IMG/VR virus record: IMGVR_UViG_3300030012_001297
Location: 1 to 22,762 of that record
Reading direction: 5' to 3' (one strand)
DNA from: a virus
DNA length: 22,762 nucleotides
Shown: one piece after another, positions 2,525 through 17,787 of the stretch
How the letters are laid out: each line of letters opens with the position of its first letter
How positions within the stretch are numbered: position 1 is the first letter of the stretch
The notes under the pieces: generated by a model
Told to the model about the DNA's origin: nothing
The model's database searches: none
What the model saw: the letters and a program-made list of their open reading frames with translations, nothing else
Made by a program: the position numbers and the translations under genes

Positions 2525-2925
2525 TTTAATAATTTTGCTTTGTTAATAGTTGCGCCCAACAAACGAGCGTTCTCAATAATTTCTAGTTCTTGTTGCTTGT
2601 GTAATTCAATTACTTTTTTTGCAACCTTTTGCTTTTCTTTTCGTAGCCATATATTCCAAGTCCTTACATTCAGAAAGACACTTGCTTCATCTCCAGCTCT
2701 CACGCCCTCTCTAAAACCCCTTGAAACATCCTCCATTGTCATTGTACTGAATTGATTGTTATTGGCTAAGTCATCCACTAGGATGTTTGCCATTGTAACA
2801 ATGTCCTCAACACTTGGCTTTTGTCCTATCTCCAAGTATGTACGAGAAAGTATGTCAACAGCATCTTCTTTTAGTTTAGGTAGTTCGTTCTTCCAACGAT
2901 ACCAAATTTGTTGTTTTTTATCCAT
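2521..2925 (-). CDS. Replication-block protein, 134 aa, unknown
   Basis: The product has 134 residues. The N-terminal part (QQIWYRWKNELPKLKEDAVD) is helical; the middle reads KPSVEDIVTMANILVDDL, then TMTMEDVSRGFREGVRAGD and FLNVRTWNIWLRKEKQKVAK, with a charged helical tail. The motif of a DV..(A/G)F..G(V)R followed by a LN.RTW..WL segment is one I associate with proteins encoded next to phage replication initiators, but I cannot assign an activity. The start overlaps the replisome organizer by 8 bp. A helicase-loader-like role would fit the position but is not supported by any visible P-loop. Confidence 0.65.
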   Translation of the reverse strand: MDKKQQIWYRWKNELPKLKEDAVDILSRTYLEIGQKPSVEDIVTMANILVDDLANNNQFSTMTMEDVSRGFREGVRAGDEASVFLNVRTWNIWLRKEKQKVAKKVIELHKQQELEIIENARLLGATINKAKLLK

Positions 2926-3592
2926 TGTTTATAATATTACGAGCTTTCTGCCAGTTGTCAAGTGCGCTCTTAGTTTTTGATTGTTTTTGTTCTCTAAGGT
3001 CAAAAATACCTTTCCATCCGTTTTCAATAGATTGCTGAATGATTTGTTCTTGCACTTCGTGGCATCCTTGAGAAAGTCGCATTAGCTTTCCAATCGCTGC
3101 TTTTTCTCCTATTGGTTTATAAGTCAAACGGAATGTTTCTTTTCTATATGCTCTCCACTTTTTCCATACCTCAACATTTAATTCTTCTAATTCTTCAAAA
3201 TCAAAAACCTCTTTTTTAATTATATCAGTATTTAATTTAATATTAGTATTTAATAGTGGTGCTTTTTCGGCATCCCGTTTATCGGTTTCCCGTTTTTGGG
3301 TAAACGGTACTTCGTGAACTATATATTCATAACCCTTAAATAAGCCCTTATTTCTTTTTTGTAGTCTTTCTATATATCCAAGCTGTGAAAGTTCCTTAAA
3401 TGCGCTGTAAATAGCTTTCTTACCGTCTTTGTGCCACTTCTCAACCTCCTCTACATACAAATCCCAATATTCTGGAAGTGCTAACAAGTGACACAATAAA
3501 CCCTTTGCTTTCAAACTCATATCCTTATTGAAGATGAACTCATTGTTAATCGTAGTGAAGTTGCTACTTTTTTTGACTAGAATCTTTTTCAC
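2918..3592 (-). CDS. Phage replisome organizer / replication initiation protein
   Basis: The product has 224 residues. Residues about 1-85 form a winged-helix domain of the replication-initiator type (NNEFIFNKDMSLKAKGLLCH, LLALPEYWDLYVEEVEKW, AFKELSQLGYIERLQ). A variable linker follows, then a C-terminal module with AIGKLMRLSQGCHEVQEQII and SIENGWKGIFDL near 165-200, typical of phage replisome organizers, where I...SI.NGWKG(I/L)F is the hallmark. These proteins bind the origin and recruit the host helicase. No helicase or polymerase is visible in the window, so host enzymes are presumably used. It overlaps the preceding gene by 4 bp. Confidence 0.78.
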   Translation of the reverse strand: MKKILVKKSSNFTTINNEFIFNKDMSLKAKGLLCHLLALPEYWDLYVEEVEKWHKDGKKAIYSAFKELSQLGYIERLQKRNKGLFKGYEYIVHEVPFTQKRETDKRDAEKAPLLNTNIKLNTDIIKKEVFDFEELEELNVEVWKKWRAYRKETFRLTYKPIGEKAAIGKLMRLSQGCHEVQEQIIQQSIENGWKGIFDLREQKQSKTKSALDNWQKARNIINNG

Positions 3593-4796: not shown

Positions 4797-5079
4797 TTAT
4801 ATTCAAATTGATTTGTTTAAATAATATATCAGCGTTCAATTTACGCAAGTGAATCAATGCTATTTGAAGTCCTTTGTTTACTCCTTCTGTAATAGCTAAA
4901 TCAGTCAAATCATTTTCTTGCTTGTAAACTTTTATAAGTTCAGCGTTTCGCATCTCTTGTTCTTTAAGTTCAGCGATTAGCTGATTGATTGTAGCTTCTA
5001 CCATATCAGCGTTGAGAGTTCTTGTTTTTAGTTCTTCTTTAGGATTGAAGAACAAACTTGAAATTAAATCGTTTGTCAT
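4783..5079 (-). CDS. Early protein, 98 aa, unknown (third leader gene)
   Basis: The product has 98 residues from ATG 5079 (MTNDLISSLFFNPKEELKTR...), mostly helical, with a coiled-coil-like middle (INQLIAELKEQEMRNAELIK) and an Asn-rich acidic end (NLNINEND). The frame is open further up to 5121 through the repeated leader, but the ATG at 5079 follows the shared A-rich leader ending AAAACA and matches the two sister genes, so I use it. Its 5' leader carries terminator-leader module copy 1. No family is recognised. Confidence 0.65.
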   Translation of the reverse strand: MTNDLISSLFFNPKEELKTRTLNADMVEATINQLIAELKEQEMRNAELIKVYKQENDLTDLAITEGVNKGLQIALIHLRKLNADILFKQINLNINEND

Positions 5080-5153
5080 TGTTTTGTGTTTTAGTGCTTG
5101 GCTTCGTTGCCCTGCACCCAAAAACCCCGCATTTATTTCAGTGCGGGGCGGTG
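5077..5153 (-). repeat. Terminator-leader module, copy 1
   Basis: This 77-bp segment is nearly identical to 5321-5398; apart from one single-base indel near the start-codon end I see no difference. In transcription order it holds a GC-rich hairpin (7-bp stem CCCCGCA/TGCGGGG) with TTTTT, a second weaker potential stem (GTGC...GCAC), an A-rich leader and the ATG of the next gene. The same module precedes two adjacent unrelated early genes. Confidence 0.9.
5125..5148 (-). terminator. Intrinsic terminator/attenuator in leader copy 1
   Basis: On the minus strand, CCCCGCA and TGCGGGG form a 7-bp stem (5148-5142 with 5131-5125) around a 10-nt loop, followed at once by five T before a GGG. The T tract is short, so partial termination or attenuation is more likely than a complete stop; the downstream genes, including SSB and the initiator, would depend on read-through or antitermination. 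Confidence 0.65.
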
Positions 5154-5167
5154 AGGTTTTTTACTTA

Positions 5168-5323
5168 TTATCTTTTTTTAAGTTCTATTAATATTTGATT
5201 TTTTAGCTCCTTTAGTTCATCGTGCGATAAATTAAAGCTGTTACAAACTTGTATAACTAGCATCTCACTAACTTTTGATAATACTGTTTGTAGTTCCGTT
5301 TTTGTGTAATTTGTTAAATCCAT
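5168..5323 (-). CDS. Small early protein, 51 aa, unknown
   Basis: The ATG at 5323-5321 opens a 51-codon frame (MDLTNYTKTELQTVLSKVSE...) ending at TAA 5170-5168. It is helical by composition, with a heptad-like C-terminus (HDELKELKNQILIELKKR). It follows the same A-rich leader (CAACAAAACA) as its two neighbours and is flanked on both sides by terminator-leader modules, so it is a discrete transcription/translation cassette. No family is recognised. The KTEL.(T/E)...K segment hints at a small nucleic-acid-associated helical protein, which is only a guess. Confidence 0.6.
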   Translation of the reverse strand: MDLTNYTKTELQTVLSKVSEMLVIQVCNSFNLSHDELKELKNQILIELKKR

Positions 5324-5398
5324 TGTTTTGTTGTTTTAGTGCTTGGCTTCGTTGCCCTGCACCCAAAAACCCCGCATTTATTTCAGTGCGGGGCGGTG
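5321..5398 (-). repeat. Terminator-leader module, copy 2
   Basis: This 78-bp segment is the sister of 5077-5153, with the same hairpin, T5 tract, second potential stem and A-rich leader, ending in the ATG of the 51-aa gene. Retention of both sequence and position relative to an ATG indicates duplication of a regulatory leader rather than of a coding sequence. Confidence 0.9.
5370..5393 (-). terminator. Intrinsic terminator/attenuator in leader copy 2
   Basis: The stem CCCCGCA/TGCGGGG (5393-5387 with 5376-5370) has a 10-nt loop and is followed by TTTTT then GGG on the minus strand. It lies between the first early gene and the 51-aa gene and would trim most transcripts starting at the early promoter near 5644 unless read through. 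Confidence 0.65.
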
Positions 5399-5411
5399 GG
5401 TTTAGTTTTGA

Positions 5412-5612
5412 CTATTCTTTGTTGGTTAAGATAAGTCCTTTCATTGGTCTGCCATCTGGGTAAGTTTCACCGATTGGCTTTTGTAGGTTGTCGTTTGTTT
5501 TTGCAATAACTTCTAACTCTGATAATTCTCTTTGAGCTTTCTTCTCTGCTTCTTCTTTTTGCTCTTGTAAGTGTAATCTCATTACTGCTAATTCAATTTG
5601 ATAATCGTTCAT
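5412..5612 (-). CDS. First early gene, 66 aa, unknown
   Basis: The product has 66 residues from ATG 5612 (MNDYQIELAVMRLHLQEQ...). It has a long charged helix with coiled-coil character (QEQKEEAEKKAQRELSELEV) and then a proline/glycine segment (KPIGETYPDGRPMKGLI). The frame runs open to 5666, but that part crosses the promoter-like box and encodes a Cys/Ile-rich stretch, so the ATG behind the leader AACAACAAAACA is preferred. It is the first gene after the early promoter and thus likely among the first phage products made. No family is recognised. Confidence 0.62.
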   Translation of the reverse strand: MNDYQIELAVMRLHLQEQKEEAEKKAQRELSELEVIAKTNDNLQKPIGETYPDGRPMKGLILTNKE

Positions 5613-5643: not shown

Positions 5644-5674
5644 CAAATATATGCACTCCCAACCAATTACACAA
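5644..5674 (-). promoter_or_regulatory. Early promoter, Bacteroidetes type
   Basis: On the minus strand TATATTTG (5651-5644) matches the Bacteroidetes -7 consensus TAnnTTTG, with TTG (5674-5672) exactly 20 nt upstream, matching the -33 element spacing. The start site would fall near 5637, giving a leader of about 25 nt before the first early ATG at 5612. This is the best promoter match in the window and lies in the main regulatory gap. Confidence 0.68.
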
Positions 5675-5754: not shown

Positions 5755-5784
5755 ATAAAAAAAGAAAAGGGGCTAAAAAGCCCC
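5755..5784 (-). terminator. Rho-independent terminator of the late operon
   Basis: On the minus strand GGGGCT-TTTT-AGCCCC (5784-5769) is followed by a long T-rich tract (TTTTCTTTTTTTAT). This is a textbook intrinsic terminator about 58 bp after the metallophosphoesterase stop. It closes the structural/lysis transcription unit and insulates the early promoter. Confidence 0.88.
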
Positions 5785-5833: not shown

Positions 5834-5867
5834 CAAATGTATCAAAAAATATGAGTTAAATGCGCAA
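5834..5867 (-). promoter_or_regulatory. Possible promoter for a short terminator-proximal RNA
   Basis: TACATTTG (5841-5834, minus strand) fits TAnnTTTG, with TTG at 5867-5865, 23 nt upstream (at the long end of accepted spacing). A transcript starting near 5827 would end at the 5769-5784 terminator after about 60-75 nt and contains no obvious ORF. The evidence is weak and consists only of the two boxes. Confidence 0.28.
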
Positions 5868-6900
5868 TTTGACCATTTTCTTTTGAGTGTATAAAACCTT
5901 CAACAGCTTTAGGGCTTCCAGTATATCCCTTTTGATAGTGCCAAGCATCCGCACCACTAGGGCTTCTAAGAAATTCTAAAGTGACTGCAATTTCATCAAA
6001 GCTCGTTAAATATTTAAATCGTTGCTTATGGTGTATGTGGTGAAGATACCAGTATCGGTGTTTAGTCTTTGCCCAAAGCTCTGGCTTCTCTTGAGCCATA
6101 AGCAAAGCAAGATTGTTTGATTTTGCACCGTCACCGTGAGTAAGTCCAATCAAACTTGATCCGTAAACATAGTATTTTCTATGAATAGGCGAATCATCCA
6201 CGCTTACTGAATCCGTATTTCGAAACCAAGACTTCAAAGCGTGCGCTAAGTGGAATCCACTCATATAATCGTGATTGCTCATTGAGTGAACACAATCAAC
6301 AGGAGCGATGTTCATAAGCATCTCAACACACTTAACATATACCTCAAGAGCTGTTGTGAAGTGTCGATACCATTTTCCATCGGTGTCTTGTCTTGTTAAT
6401 TTTGTGGTGCTTCCTGTTGTATTGTCGGTGTGCAAAATATCGTTTCCTATACAAAACAACACCTTTTCAATGGTGAACCCCTCAGACTTGGAGATAATGC
6501 CTCTCACACCGTCTAAAATGCGTTTTCTAGCTGTTTTAACATTATATGTGTCCCCTGTTTCTAAAGCATCAGCATATTTACCAATGTGAACATCGGCTGG
6601 GTTTATTACCAAAAGGTGTCCTTCTTTTCGTTTAGGATAGTCAATAGAAGGATAAGAAGGTGAATAATTAGAAATTAGGTCCTCTATGCTTTTTAGAAAA
6701 TCATCTCTTGAAAACTCATTTGGCTTGGCAAATATTGAGAATCGTTTGCTCTTATACCAATAGTGATGAACAGAGCCGACATCTATTCCAGCTTCGTTAC
6801 ATTCTTTTGCTAGTAGTGCTTTGTTTTCTTTGTCTTGTCTATAATCATCAATCAATCGCCATTCATCTTCACTTAGACGGTATCGCTTCTGATTTTTCAT
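5842..6900 (-). CDS. Calcineurin-like metallophosphoesterase
   Basis: The product has 352 residues. After an N-terminal helical region with a possible helix-turn-helix (LLAKECNEAGIDVGSVHHYW, residues about 29-48), the metallophosphoesterase motifs appear in order: DVH (103-105), GNDILHTD (152-159), SNHD (208-211, the GNHE/D motif), THGD (254-257) and HHIHH (287-291, equivalent to GHxH). All dimetal ligands appear present, so it should be an active phosphoesterase or nuclease. The substrate is unknown; candidates are DNA, RNA, or cyclic nucleotides used in host defence. It is the last gene before the late terminator and overlaps the 3TM holin by 4 bp. Confidence 0.82.
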   Translation of the reverse strand: MKNQKRYRLSEDEWRLIDDYRQDKENKALLAKECNEAGIDVGSVHHYWYKSKRFSIFAKPNEFSRDDFLKSIEDLISNYSPSYPSIDYPKRKEGHLLVINPADVHIGKYADALETGDTYNVKTARKRILDGVRGIISKSEGFTIEKVLFCIGNDILHTDNTTGSTTKLTRQDTDGKWYRHFTTALEVYVKCVEMLMNIAPVDCVHSMSNHDYMSGFHLAHALKSWFRNTDSVSVDDSPIHRKYYVYGSSLIGLTHGDGAKSNNLALLMAQEKPELWAKTKHRYWYLHHIHHKQRFKYLTSFDEIAVTLEFLRSPSGADAWHYQKGYTGSPKAVEGFIHSKENGQIAHLTHIF

Positions 6901-13690: not shown

Positions 13691-14011
13691 CTCTTTTTCG
13701 TTTCCCTCGTCTTTGAATTTTGCAGAAAACTGTTCTCCGAATACATCAAAACACTTTTGTAGTGCTTCGAAGTCCTCATCTAAAATATCTGCAATATCCT
13801 CAATTGTCAAATCAAAATCTTTTCCAGCTACTCTTGCTCCGTCTTGCAATCCAGCAAGGATAAGCTGACAGGCATCGTCTAAAGATATATCTTGACCTAA
13901 CTTGTCAAGGTCTTGCAAACTTGTGTTTGTTCTTTTACAATAAATTCTAAGAGCGTTCATTCCGAATCTAATCGGATAGTCTTTTTCGTTGAGTAATATA
14001 ACTTCATACAT
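13661..14011 (-). CDS. Tail assembly chaperone (gpG-like)
   Basis: The product has 116 residues: MYEVILLNEKDYPIRFGMNA, then LRIYCKRTNTSLQDLDKLGQ, LILAGLQDGARVAGKDFDLT and IEDIADILDEDFEALQKCFD, ending in a Lys/Glu-rich tail. The opening (P.(R)FGMNAL..Y...(T)..SL.DL) is typical of siphophage tail chaperones of the TAC_12 kind. It lies between the tail tube and tape measure genes, as expected. The chaperone coats the tape measure during tail assembly and is absent from mature virions. Its ATG lies 2 bp from one arm of a 10-bp inverted repeat. Confidence 0.8.
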   Translation of the reverse strand: MYEVILLNEKDYPIRFGMNALRIYCKRTNTSLQDLDKLGQDISLDDACQLILAGLQDGARVAGKDFDLTIEDIADILDEDFEALQKCFDVFGEQFSAKFKDEGNEKEEKKTPQKKK

Positions 14012-14012
14012 T

Positions 14013-14073
14013 TTTCGTTGGTTTTAAAAGTTAAGTTGATGGAGAGAGCCGAAGCCCATCCCCACCAACGAAA
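14013..14073 (-). promoter_or_regulatory. Intergenic stem-loop after the tail tube gene
   Basis: The 66-bp gap holds a perfect 10-bp inverted repeat (TTTCGTTGGT at 14013-14022, ACCAACGAAA at 14064-14073) enclosing a smaller GATGG/CCATC stem (14038-14042, 14056-14060). Its loop contains GAGCCGAAGC on the plus strand. In RNA the outer arm ends 2 nt before the chaperone ATG, so folding could limit its translation relative to the abundant tube protein. There is no T tract at the 3' side, so it is not a standard terminator. Confidence 0.62.
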
Positions 14074-14077
14074 TAAA

Positions 14078-14509
14078 TTAAATAGAATTTTGAGTTAATG
14101 TTCCAGTCCCTTCAATAGATACTGAATAAGTTGGAGCATCTTCTACTCCTCCTGTCATCTCTAAAGAAGTTATGAAACCAGAACCGCTATAAGTGTAATC
14201 ACCAGAAGCTGGAGAAGCCAAGCCAAAAACAAAAGTTACAGAAGTTCTTGCCATCATTTGAGTAAACAATTCATCTGGTTCAGTGTCAGCAGCAACACCA
14301 GCGAAGTCCATCAATCCATCAGCAGAAAGTGAGAAAGACTTTTGTCCTCCTATAATATCTCTAAAACCTCCAGAGTCTTTTGTTGATGTGTCAATTGCAT
14401 CTACATTCACTGACAAAGAGCAGCTTGTAGCGTGCATTAATTTTGCGTTAGACCCCCCACTTGACGGGCTAACTGTTAGGATTAAATCCGTTCCGTTAAA
14501 AATAGCCAT
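14078..14509 (-). CDS. Major tail tube protein
   Basis: The product has 143 residues: AIFNGTDLILTVSPSSGGSN, HATSCSLSVNVDAIDTSTKD, SGGFRDIIGGQKSFSLSADG, then YTYSGSGFITSLEMTGGVED and TYSVSIEGTGTL. The ordered beta strands with D.(S)TKDS.G(F)....G.(K)SFS.S(A/C)DG and the final G.E...(T)(Y)S(V/I)S..G(T)G(T) are the pattern of TP901-1/gpV-type tail tube proteins. It forms the tail tube as stacked hexamers. The position is as expected, after tail completion genes and before the chaperone. It is followed by a stem-loop. Confidence 0.85.
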   Translation of the reverse strand: MAIFNGTDLILTVSPSSGGSNAKLMHATSCSLSVNVDAIDTSTKDSGGFRDIIGGQKSFSLSADGLMDFAGVAADTEPDELFTQMMARTSVTFVFGLASPASGDYTYSGSGFITSLEMTGGVEDAPTYSVSIEGTGTLTQNSI

Positions 14510-15887: not shown

Positions 15888-16507
15888 TATCCTTGTACTC
15901 GATAAGGCATCAATAAGTATTCAGCCGATTGTGGTATCTCTTTATAAGTCCTATCACTAACAGTTTGTCTTGTTTCGTAATAAGTTCCAACCATCAAAAG
16001 AATAGCTTGTTTGATAGGTGCTGGAACTTGTGAAGCTGCACTAAATCCAAGAGTAAAATCTACAGTTACAGCATTTGGTTTGTCGTATGTACTTGGGATA
16101 GTTGCATCTGGTGCAAAGTAAATTCTTGCTGGCTTTATGCTACCATCAGCAAAATAATTAGCGGCAGCTAAAGATTGACTTGCATTGTTCTCATCAGAAT
16201 AAGTGATTGAGTTTATTGTCAAAGTTCTTAGCGTTCCTTTTAATAAGTTAAAATAATCTGGAAAAGCATCAATATCTAAAAACCAAGATTGTTCCATCAA
16301 AGCCAGATTCGTGTTATTCTCAGCAGCAGAAGTAGCCACATTGATAAGCGTTTCAATATAAGTGTCATCAGCTGTGAATGAACTATCAATTCGCAAATGT
16401 GTTTTTGCTTCTGCAACAGATACGGGAGTAAGTGTTGGAGCTGTTTTCAACCTCAACTTTCCATAACCTGTTGTTACTGCAATACCTAAATCTGTATTTG
16501 TTATCAT
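15887..16507 (-). CDS. Head-tail connector protein (HK97 gp6-like)
   Basis: The product has 206 residues: LRLKTAPTLTPVSVAEAKTH, LRIDSSFTADDTYIETLINV, AAENNTNLALMEQSWFLDID. The (P)(V)(S)(V/L)(A/E)EAK.HLR(I/V)......(DD).YI..LI..A....E..T(N).(A)L..Q(S/T)(W) signature defines the gp6-like adaptor. The C-terminus has PAPIKQAILLMVGTYYETRQ, the (P)..(I)(K/R)(Q/A)A(I/L)L.(L/M)(V)..(Y)(Y/W)..R family end. It forms the adaptor ring below the portal. It follows the capsid gene after a 56-bp gap with a hairpin. Confidence 0.85.
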   Translation of the reverse strand: MITNTDLGIAVTTGYGKLRLKTAPTLTPVSVAEAKTHLRIDSSFTADDTYIETLINVATSAAENNTNLALMEQSWFLDIDAFPDYFNLLKGTLRTLTINSITYSDENNASQSLAAANYFADGSIKPARIYFAPDATIPSTYDKPNAVTVDFTLGFSAASQVPAPIKQAILLMVGTYYETRQTVSDRTYKEIPQSAEYLLMPYRVQG

Positions 16508-16525
16508 ATCTTTTGTTGGTAAAAT

Positions 16526-16549
16526 GGAGGAGAGCCGAAACCCTCCTCC
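16526..16549 (-). promoter_or_regulatory. Stem-loop after the major capsid gene
   Basis: GGAGGAG (16549-16543 on the minus strand) pairs with CTCCTCC (16532-16526) in a perfect 7-bp stem around a 10-nt loop, 14 bp after the capsid stop; ATTTT follows. The loop and 3' arm share TTCGGCTCT with the stem-loop after the tail tube gene. A possible partial terminator or mRNA 3'-end stabiliser that lets the capsid be made in excess. Confidence 0.6.
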
Positions 16550-16563
16550 AGTATTTAAATCAA

Positions 16564-17787
16564 TTATGCTTCAATCAATGTAGCAAAAGCAGTATCATTT
16601 TGTACTGCATCACCATCAATCAAAGAAGTTAAAACATAGCGAGGTTCACCAGTTCCAGCGTTAGTATAAATGTCATAAATCACATCTAAACCACCAAACT
16701 GAGCAATGTGAACTTTAGAGAAATCTCCAAAAAGTGCGTGTTCTTTTCCAGCTACTCCAGAAGCAGCAACATTACTAGAAATGAATGTAAAATATCCATT
16801 TGCAGTCTTATCTCTGTTATCATACAAAGCAGACACACCAGTTACTTGAACTGCGTTTTTAACAGCAGTGTATGCATCTAAGTCCATTAAGTAAGCCATT
16901 CTAGCACCTTCTAATTGTACGCCGTTACCTAAAACAGTTGTTTCAAGAGCAGTCAATGAAGAAGCAGAAACAGCAGCAGTTGAGCCAGCAGCAGCATCAG
17001 CAAAGATAGAAGCTGGAGCGTTTGAAACATCTGAAGTATCTAATAAAGCATTCTCCAAAGCAGATGCAACGGATTGAGCCATATTTCTTTGTAAAGCAGC
17101 TTCGATAGAAGCGTTTTGAGTAATAGCTTCAGCAGAAACATTCACGATAGAAATAAGTTTCTTTGGGCTTAATGTTACGCTAGTAGCAGTACCATTTGCC
17201 GTAGGAGCATTACCACCCGTTTCAGCAACGAAACCAGAGTTGATTGAGCTAAAAACTGGAAACTTCATATTGTTCACACCTGAATAGAAGTTTGCGCCAG
17301 CAGAAGCAAGAACTAAGTTTGATTCTAATTGGTCAGTCCAAGGCATCACTTCAGTAGCGTTTCCAGCAGCAGTAGCAACAGCAGCACGAGTCAAAACAGA
17401 AGCTGGAATTCCTATACCTTTGAAAGATTGTCCAGTGTAACGAGATTCGTTTCTAGCTTCTTGGTCCATTTCTTTCACTAATCCAGATAATCTACCAGAT
17501 GCAGCTTGTGCTAAAGCTTCTTGGAATGAATAATTACGAATTTCTGAAGGTGTGTTTTCTTCAGAAACTGGCTCTGACTTTGCAGCTTTGTTTGCTTGTA
17601 ATGCTTCAAATGAAGCAGCTCTTTTAGCCATACTCTCTAAAGAGTCAGCTTTTTCATTTAGAGAATCAAATTCTTTAGTTTCTGAATCAGTAAGCTCACG
17701 ACCCTCAACTTTCGCTGAGTCAACGATTGCTTCCATATTTTCAACAACTGAAGCTCTCTCCTCTGTGTAGAATTTAGATGTTTTCAT
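16564..17787 (-). CDS. Major capsid protein, HK97 fold
   Basis: The product has 407 residues. Residues about 1-100 form a charged coiled-coil delta (scaffold) domain (TEERASVVENMEAIVDSAKV, ETKEFDSLNEKADSLESMAK), expected to be cut off by the protease. After a linker come capsid motifs: MPWTDQLESNLVLASAGANF, MKFPVFSSINSGFVAETGG, VTLSPKKLISIVNVSAEAIT, RNMAQSVASALENALLD, then GARMAYLMDLDAYTAVKNA, HALFGDFSKVHIAQFGGLDV. These match the HK97-type spine helix, E-loop region and P domain. The absence of a separate scaffold gene agrees with the delta-domain arrangement. It is followed by a hairpin. Confidence 0.93.
   Translation of the reverse strand: MKTSKFYTEERASVVENMEAIVDSAKVEGRELTDSETKEFDSLNEKADSLESMAKRAASFEALQANKAAKSEPVSEENTPSEIRNYSFQEALAQAASGRLSGLVKEMDQEARNESRYTGQSFKGIGIPASVLTRAAVATAAGNATEVMPWTDQLESNLVLASAGANFYSGVNNMKFPVFSSINSGFVAETGGNAPTANGTATSVTLSPKKLISIVNVSAEAITQNASIEAALQRNMAQSVASALENALLDTSDVSNAPASIFADAAAGSTAAVSASSLTALETTVLGNGVQLEGARMAYLMDLDAYTAVKNAVQVTGVSALYDNRDKTANGYFTFISSNVAASGVAGKEHALFGDFSKVHIAQFGGLDVIYDIYTNAGTGEPRYVLTSLIDGDAVQNDTAFATLIEA

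Follow-up and report, generated by a model that had tools for sequence, protein, structure and literature searches.

Imperfect hairpins with an internal loop lie between successive genes of the polycistronic early mRNA of phage T7, where they are RNase III processing sites. Bacteroidota mRNAs mostly lack Shine-Dalgarno leaders, and post-transcriptional control in the phages of this phylum has been little explored. Antitermination signals such as λ nut and HK022 put lie where early transcripts begin and precede the terminators that they override. The intrinsic terminators of Bacteroidia (GCCCCGCA..TGCGGGGC-TTTTTT) possess short variable loops, comparatively long U-runs and no outer stem.

The promoter-early stem-loops (PeSLs) of T4-type phages are described as "mobile regulatory cassettes" (Arbiol 2010 and Comeau 2014, cited in PMC4503421). 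In Cluster K mycobacteriophages, the SAS/ESAS repeats are located at the translation starts of some non-structural genes, and some are accompanied by inverted repeats (PMC3203893). The SAS itself is a 13-bp linear start-codon sequence, present in 11-19 copies per genome in a single phage cluster (PMC3203893).

The subject of this study is a hairpin found twice in the window, that is, the whole 22,762-base virus record analyzed here, and in many uncultivated phages. By analogy, its nearest functional parallel would be the T7 early-gene hairpins and its nearest evolutionary parallel the PeSL cassettes. Like the former, it is an imperfect hairpin that separates genes within a polycistronic phage message, and the position fits; its stems are shorter, its loop is conserved, the phages and hosts are unrelated, and cleavage would be assumed by analogy. 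With PeSLs, as these are outlined in PMC4503421, it has in common that a repeated stem-loop lies between small accessory genes and is tied to their shuffling between phages. A PeSL, according to the same outline, contains an early promoter; the hairpin element does not and is therefore not a PeSL by definition. Compared with PeSLs so described, it is located in probably Bacteroidota phages, inside the operon between stop and start codons, and it possesses a conserved loop, a U-rich bulge and an outer stem that covaries; the phages carrying it are many and unrelated. Unlike the SAS, it is tied to a stop as well as a start codon, is present in 1-4 copies per record and also follows capsid genes, and its consensus lacks an SAS-type 13-bp GGGATAGGAGCCC sequence at the start codon. 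It shares the GC-rich inner stem sequence of the Bacteroidia terminators, whereas its U-run is 3-5 nt and lies inside a longer stem; its placement also differs from that of nut and put. A recognizable hairpin at gene boundaries offers a handle on operon punctuation in Bacteroidota phages.

The repeated segment and its operon

The window carries its genes on the minus strand, and the operon holding both copies of the repeated segment begins at the early promoter (5651-5644). Three genes (Table 1) lead from there toward the replication block, with a replication initiator at 2918-3592. The 66, 51 and 98 aa ORFs flanking the segments are mutually unrelated, and none of the three has a match in Pfam. 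The host probably belongs to the phylum Bacteroidota, judging from the Bacteroidota-type promoter and start-codon context and from the presence of phages of Flavobacterium, Elizabethkingia and Nonlabens among the best cultured relatives of the exonuclease and holin.

Table 1. Features of the early operon and of the two repeated segments (window coordinates)
Feature	Position	Strand	Basis or remark
Ordinary intrinsic terminator, GGGGCTTTTTAGCCCC + TTTTCTTTTT	5769..5784	-	Terminator scan; boundary between upstream operon and early promoter
Early promoter, -7 box TATATTTG (TAnnTTTG, Bacteroidota-type)	5644..5651	-	Sequence; nearly all relatives have TAnnTTTG at this position
Cassette gene 1, 66 aa	5412..5612	-	
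Whole repeated segment, copy A (hairpin, second potential stem, A-rich leader, gene 2 ATG)	5321..5403	-	
Hairpin, copy A	5360..5400	-	Model R1 match 5343-5414, 61 bits; fold
Second potential stem, copy A (GTGC-AG-GGC..GCC-AA-GCAC)	5339..5362	-	Without covariation support
Cassette gene 2, 51 aa	5168..5323	-	
Whole repeated segment, copy B (through gene 3 ATG)	5077..5159	-	
Hairpin, copy B	5115..5155	-	Model R1 match 5098-5169, 62.5 bits; fold
Second potential stem, copy B	5094..5117	-	Fold
Gene 3, 98 aa	4783..5079	-	Conserved first early-operon gene in 20 relatives

The first-pass annotation had reported two near-identical segments ahead of unrelated genes of 51 and 98 aa, and BLAST confirms this by aligning copy B (5077-5159) with copy A over 83 nt at 98% identity; an ungapped repeat search aligned 5082-5158 with 5327-5403 at 95%. 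Such an identity over 83 nt rules out chance, and no other near-identical direct repeat in the 22.8-kb record comes close to this length. Both copies have the sequence CACCGCCCCGCACTGAAATAAATGCGGGG-TTTTT-GGGTGCAGGGCAACGAAGCCAAGCACT-AAAACA(A)CAAAACA-ATG. The same annotation had described a hairpin with T5, which is present, but the structure is longer than claimed: an outer stem (ACCC/GGGT or CACC/GGTG) encloses both the inner stem GCCCCGCA/TGCGGGGT, with its loop CTGAAATAAA, and the T5 on the 3′ side. Relative to dinucleotide shuffles, the fold has a z of about -3.5 in both copies. A third occurrence, before gene 1, comprises the end of the A-rich leader (20 nt, 95%) and has no hairpin.

The second potential stem is restricted to a subgroup consisting of the window, L004, L005 and L019, an assignment based on the exact sequence having no match in viral contigs and a search with flexible gaps matching two phages only. 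In L005, L019 and L004 a window-like extra stem, GTGC-A[AG]-GGC-AAC[GC]AA-GC[CT]-AA-GCAC, lies directly 3′ of the main hairpin and shows few variants.

A hairpin family in viral contigs

Viral contigs yielded 75 distinct copies of the hairpin, with 1-4 per record and up to three in a row; homologous modules, whose existence the first-pass annotation had put forward as a check, were found in related and unrelated phages. A scan of the viral contigs with the core CGCACTGAAANAAATGCG gave 70 stretches, most of which are intercistronic hairpins of unrelated phages, and the identical core between unrelated genes amounts to 25 nt. No recognizable copy was recovered from about 85,000 bacterial species genomes; the core scan of these gave 43 matches against about 30 expected, none in an element-like context, and they look like chance. 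A model search of 295 genomes of the class of Mucilaginibacter returned five matches, all of them ordinary terminators with short loops. Searching the consensus against cultured phages with blastn produced chance matches only, and the model search of four cultured Flavobacteriia phages revealed nothing convincing. Rfam 15 had no match at the gathering threshold, the best weak match having an E of 0.17 and 11 bits where 50 are needed. The hairpin family is previously uncatalogued and occurs in many uncultivated phages, which probably infect Bacteroidota.

The loop is CTGAAANAAA in 69 of the 75 copies, a figure partly fixed by the scan patterns. It is not universal: other loops, together with other perfectly paired upper stems, are found on the lower frame [G/A]GG-NTTT-GGTGGTA. 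A broad scan with the 3′ frame recovered mostly a coding motif of unrelated phages, and also added hairpins with other upper stems.

Compensatory changes bear out the earlier suggestion of a structured RNA for the main hairpin. Fifty aligned copies were tested for a structure consisting of an outer stem, an inner stem and a U-rich bulge; standard pairs account for 85% of the proposed structure, and 99% of the inner-stem cells are paired. Cells changed on both sides number 38 against 13.2 ± 5.0 in shuffled alignments (0 of 500 shuffles as high). The covariation score is 0.220 versus 0.136 for shuffled alignments and at most 0.095 for slid partners, the latter being a generous control since the structure was derived from the same sequences; part of the inner stem was also fixed by the search patterns. 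Two extra scans were designed against presupposing the result. When the pattern held the loop constant and left the inner stem open, CGC/GCG is replaced by CCT/AGG, CGT/ACG and CAC/GTG; the converse pattern, constant in the stem and open in the loop, recovered CTGAAANAAA or a one-letter variant of it from all but three distinct copies. The most telling individual example is the pair L073 and L137: they have in common a non-coding cassette of roughly 345 nt and the flanks of its hairpin, but one has the stem CGCA/TGCG and the other CCTA/TAGG. Across all 75 copies the inner stem contains 26 G-U or U-G combinations against a single A-C, one column pair giving 24 of the 26; since G-U is tolerated on the transcript strand only, the structure acts in RNA. 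The hairpin is a real structured transcript element.

Position was scored for the 57 copies having both flanking ORFs. In 52 of them a stop codon lies 5-28 nt upstream of the hairpin (median 13), and in 56 an ATG follows at 15-37 nt (median 24); such a spacing would allow one ribosome to terminate and another to initiate next to the folded hairpin. The neighbors fall into about 58 upstream and about 50 downstream protein clusters, the former including capsid (PF05065; L084, L150) and ArdC-type (L053) genes. In L084 and L150 the hairpin is immediately 3′ of the major capsid gene, and L150 repeats it behind the next gene, of 51 aa. A TAnnTTTG promoter is present in 1 of the 75 elements, and a promoter scan of the window module found none. 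Because copies occupy stop/ATG gaps between so many different clusters, the hairpin is generic punctuation and not a gene-specific switch. Blastp among the carriers revealed no common protein family, the best reaching 14 of 26 records, which at the sensitivity of blastp makes a shared phage-encoded reader unlikely.

Cassettes around the hairpin

Twenty relatives of gene 3 were recovered from viral contigs, giving 21 loci with the window. The promoter stands directly before gene 3, without the module, in 11 of these; the hairpin precedes gene 3 in six, and four (L006, L008, L010 and L025) contain other cassette genes and lack a hairpin ahead of gene 3, these counts being not fully independent owing to the near-duplicate contigs L007/L009, L017/L018 and L019/L020. 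The interval between promoter and gene 3 is a variable slot holding 0-4 small genes. That the modules might gate the replication block, as proposed from the window, did not hold up: in view of the 11 loci that run from promoter to gene 3 without it, and the four more lacking the hairpin before gene 3, the module is no required gate. Gene 1 has a 95% identical homologue in a different phage (L004), likewise promoter-proximal and likewise followed by a hairpin, and the homologue of gene 2 in L014 (88% identical) is the first gene after the promoter and is then followed by a hairpin.

Flanking sequences were compared between copies, in pairs that are few, related and not independent. Pairs in which homology is confined to the downstream gene have an identity of 0.84 in the right flank and 0.67 in the left, the background for unrelated pairs being 0.60 and 0.57. 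Between the window and L014, homologous on both sides, the left flanks are 0.94 and the right flanks 0.54 identical, which is a changeover at the core. Pairs having only an upstream homologue in common reveal no overall difference between left and right (0.74 versus 0.73). Judged from these alignments, the comparison supports, but does not prove, exchange at the core, and the flanking genes appear to move as cassettes. The idea of a reusable cassette element, raised in the first-pass annotation, is supported by the homologues in related and unrelated phages. Such an element would represent a second route, one without a promoter, to gene-shuffling cassettes of the kind known in T4-type phages, and the flanking hairpin lets one locate accessory early genes, which are likely host-takeover and anti-defense genes.

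Function of the hairpin

The reading we lean toward, at somewhat less than an even chance, is that of an intercistronic mRNA insulator or processing hairpin, the identical core of which doubles as a recombination joint. The hairpin would form in the polycistronic phage mRNA directly after the stop codon and ahead of the A-rich start of the next gene, where it would most likely insulate neighboring genes after transcription. To the upstream message it may be a 3′-end barrier, with a stabilizing effect, or an endonuclease processing site; to the downstream gene it would leave a short unstructured leader. The reader would probably be a host factor such as an RNase, since blastp revealed no phage gene that all carriers possess. 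The identical core between genes would supply short homology for the gain, loss and exchange of cassettes between phages, presumably by homologous recombination. A mere barrier would leave unexplained why the loop CTGAAANAAA and the lower 3′ strand are conserved, and the hairpin is not obligatory between cassette genes, as the four loci lacking it before gene 3 reveal. A wider reading, possible but doubtful, is that of a phage-wide RNA punctuation mark, in which one hairpin class with a reader in the Bacteroidota host turns every small gene into a unit expressed on its own and serves as recombination joint. If this were true, diverse phages would share interchangeable gene and non-coding RNA cassettes without a dedicated integrase.

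Transcription offers two other explanations, both raised in the first-pass annotation. As a leaky intrinsic terminator or attenuator, the inner hairpin would cause partial termination by RNA polymerase and graded downstream expression. Its GC-rich stem of 7-8 bp is followed by T5 in the window, with a T-tract score of 3.8 against 5.1 for the phage's own terminator (5784-5769), whose long T-run contrasts with the element; the GCCCCGCA/TGCGGGGC stem is also found in bacterial terminators, and leaky termination would make sense behind the capsid genes of L084 and L150. Most copies, however, possess T3 followed by GG and score 1.5-3.4, so that strong termination is unlikely as the shared function, and partial termination by the T5 copies of the window is possible. 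Neither the conserved loop nor a covarying outer stem extending past the U-run is needed for termination, and the terminator scan made no call for the element, although its loop limit of 3-8 nt alone would exclude it. With a U-run mostly of three, and a promoter-less gene whose ATG follows at a median of 24 nt where a terminator would mark the end of a transcription unit, strong termination or attenuation did not emerge as a general function; we regard the leaky terminator as rather unlikely. An antitermination signal of the nut or put type might suit an element that occurs one to four times per record, in untranslated gaps between genes close to an early promoter, but copies also lie between successive genes, follow late genes including those for capsid protein, and stand up to three in a row. 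Furthermore, close relatives without the element keep the same operon, and no boxA-like sequence was seen. We found no positive evidence for such a signal, which seems highly improbable.

The identical 25-nt core between unrelated genes, flanks that go with their respective genes and change over at the core, and the insertion and loss of cassettes in the slot between promoter and gene 3 would also be compatible with a joint acting chiefly at the DNA level, either as repeated homology or as an attC-like folded single strand, with no RNA function. Mere homology would not be expected to produce stem covariation, strand-specific wobbles and fixed stop/start spacing; blastp revealed no protein family, hence no integrase, that the carriers have in common, and the attC core motifs (RYYYAAC / GTTRRRY) are absent from the consensus by inspection. 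This explanation is improbable. The loop CTGAAANAAA in 69 of 75 copies and the U-rich bulge between two stems have the usual look of a protein-binding hairpin, as in a translational operator or RNA-binding site for a phage-encoded regulator of the MS2 or T4 RegA or gp43 kind. Since the carriers lack a shared protein family, the neighboring genes are unrelated and hairpins with other loops occupy the same frame, we consider an operator very improbable. The start of a tiny leader peptide (M-R-G-F...), with its ATG in the inner stem behind the A-rich loop, would agree with an ATG in 65 of the 75 copies, most reading MRGF, and with a 3′ strand better conserved than the 5′ strand. The ATG is largely fixed by the scan patterns, though, and the CCTA/TAGG or CGTA/TACG stem variants, recovered with the stem unfixed in the search, lack it; four others stop after three codons, and lengths run from 3 to 60 or more. 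A leader peptide is scarcely credible.

Several further features of these phages deserve mention. The DNA repair exonuclease of the window (5842-6900, minus strand) has its closest cultured relative in Synechococcus phage S-CBS2 (50%), with 44% for Flavobacterium Lillamyvirus phages and 43% for an Elizabethkingia phage; no prophage relatives of it were found at the set cut-off in the 295 genomes sampled from the Mucilaginibacter class. The terminase is nearest to those of phages of Firmicutes.

An ORF-less cassette of roughly 345 nt is well conserved between two phages (L137:2291-2660 and L073:8965-9325; also at the end of L037). In L137 it immediately follows the early promoter, and in L073/L019 it follows a hairpin element; it has no match in Rfam and is possibly a structured non-coding RNA.

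The late operon of the window, on the minus strand, contains two intercistronic hairpins, GGGCTTCGGCTCTC and GGGTTTCGGCTCTC (about 14010-14080 and 16507-16566), which possess a UUCG-type loop and are without a U-run. Similar hairpins are found in the relatives G024, G025 and G026, and they constitute a second class of punctuation hairpin.
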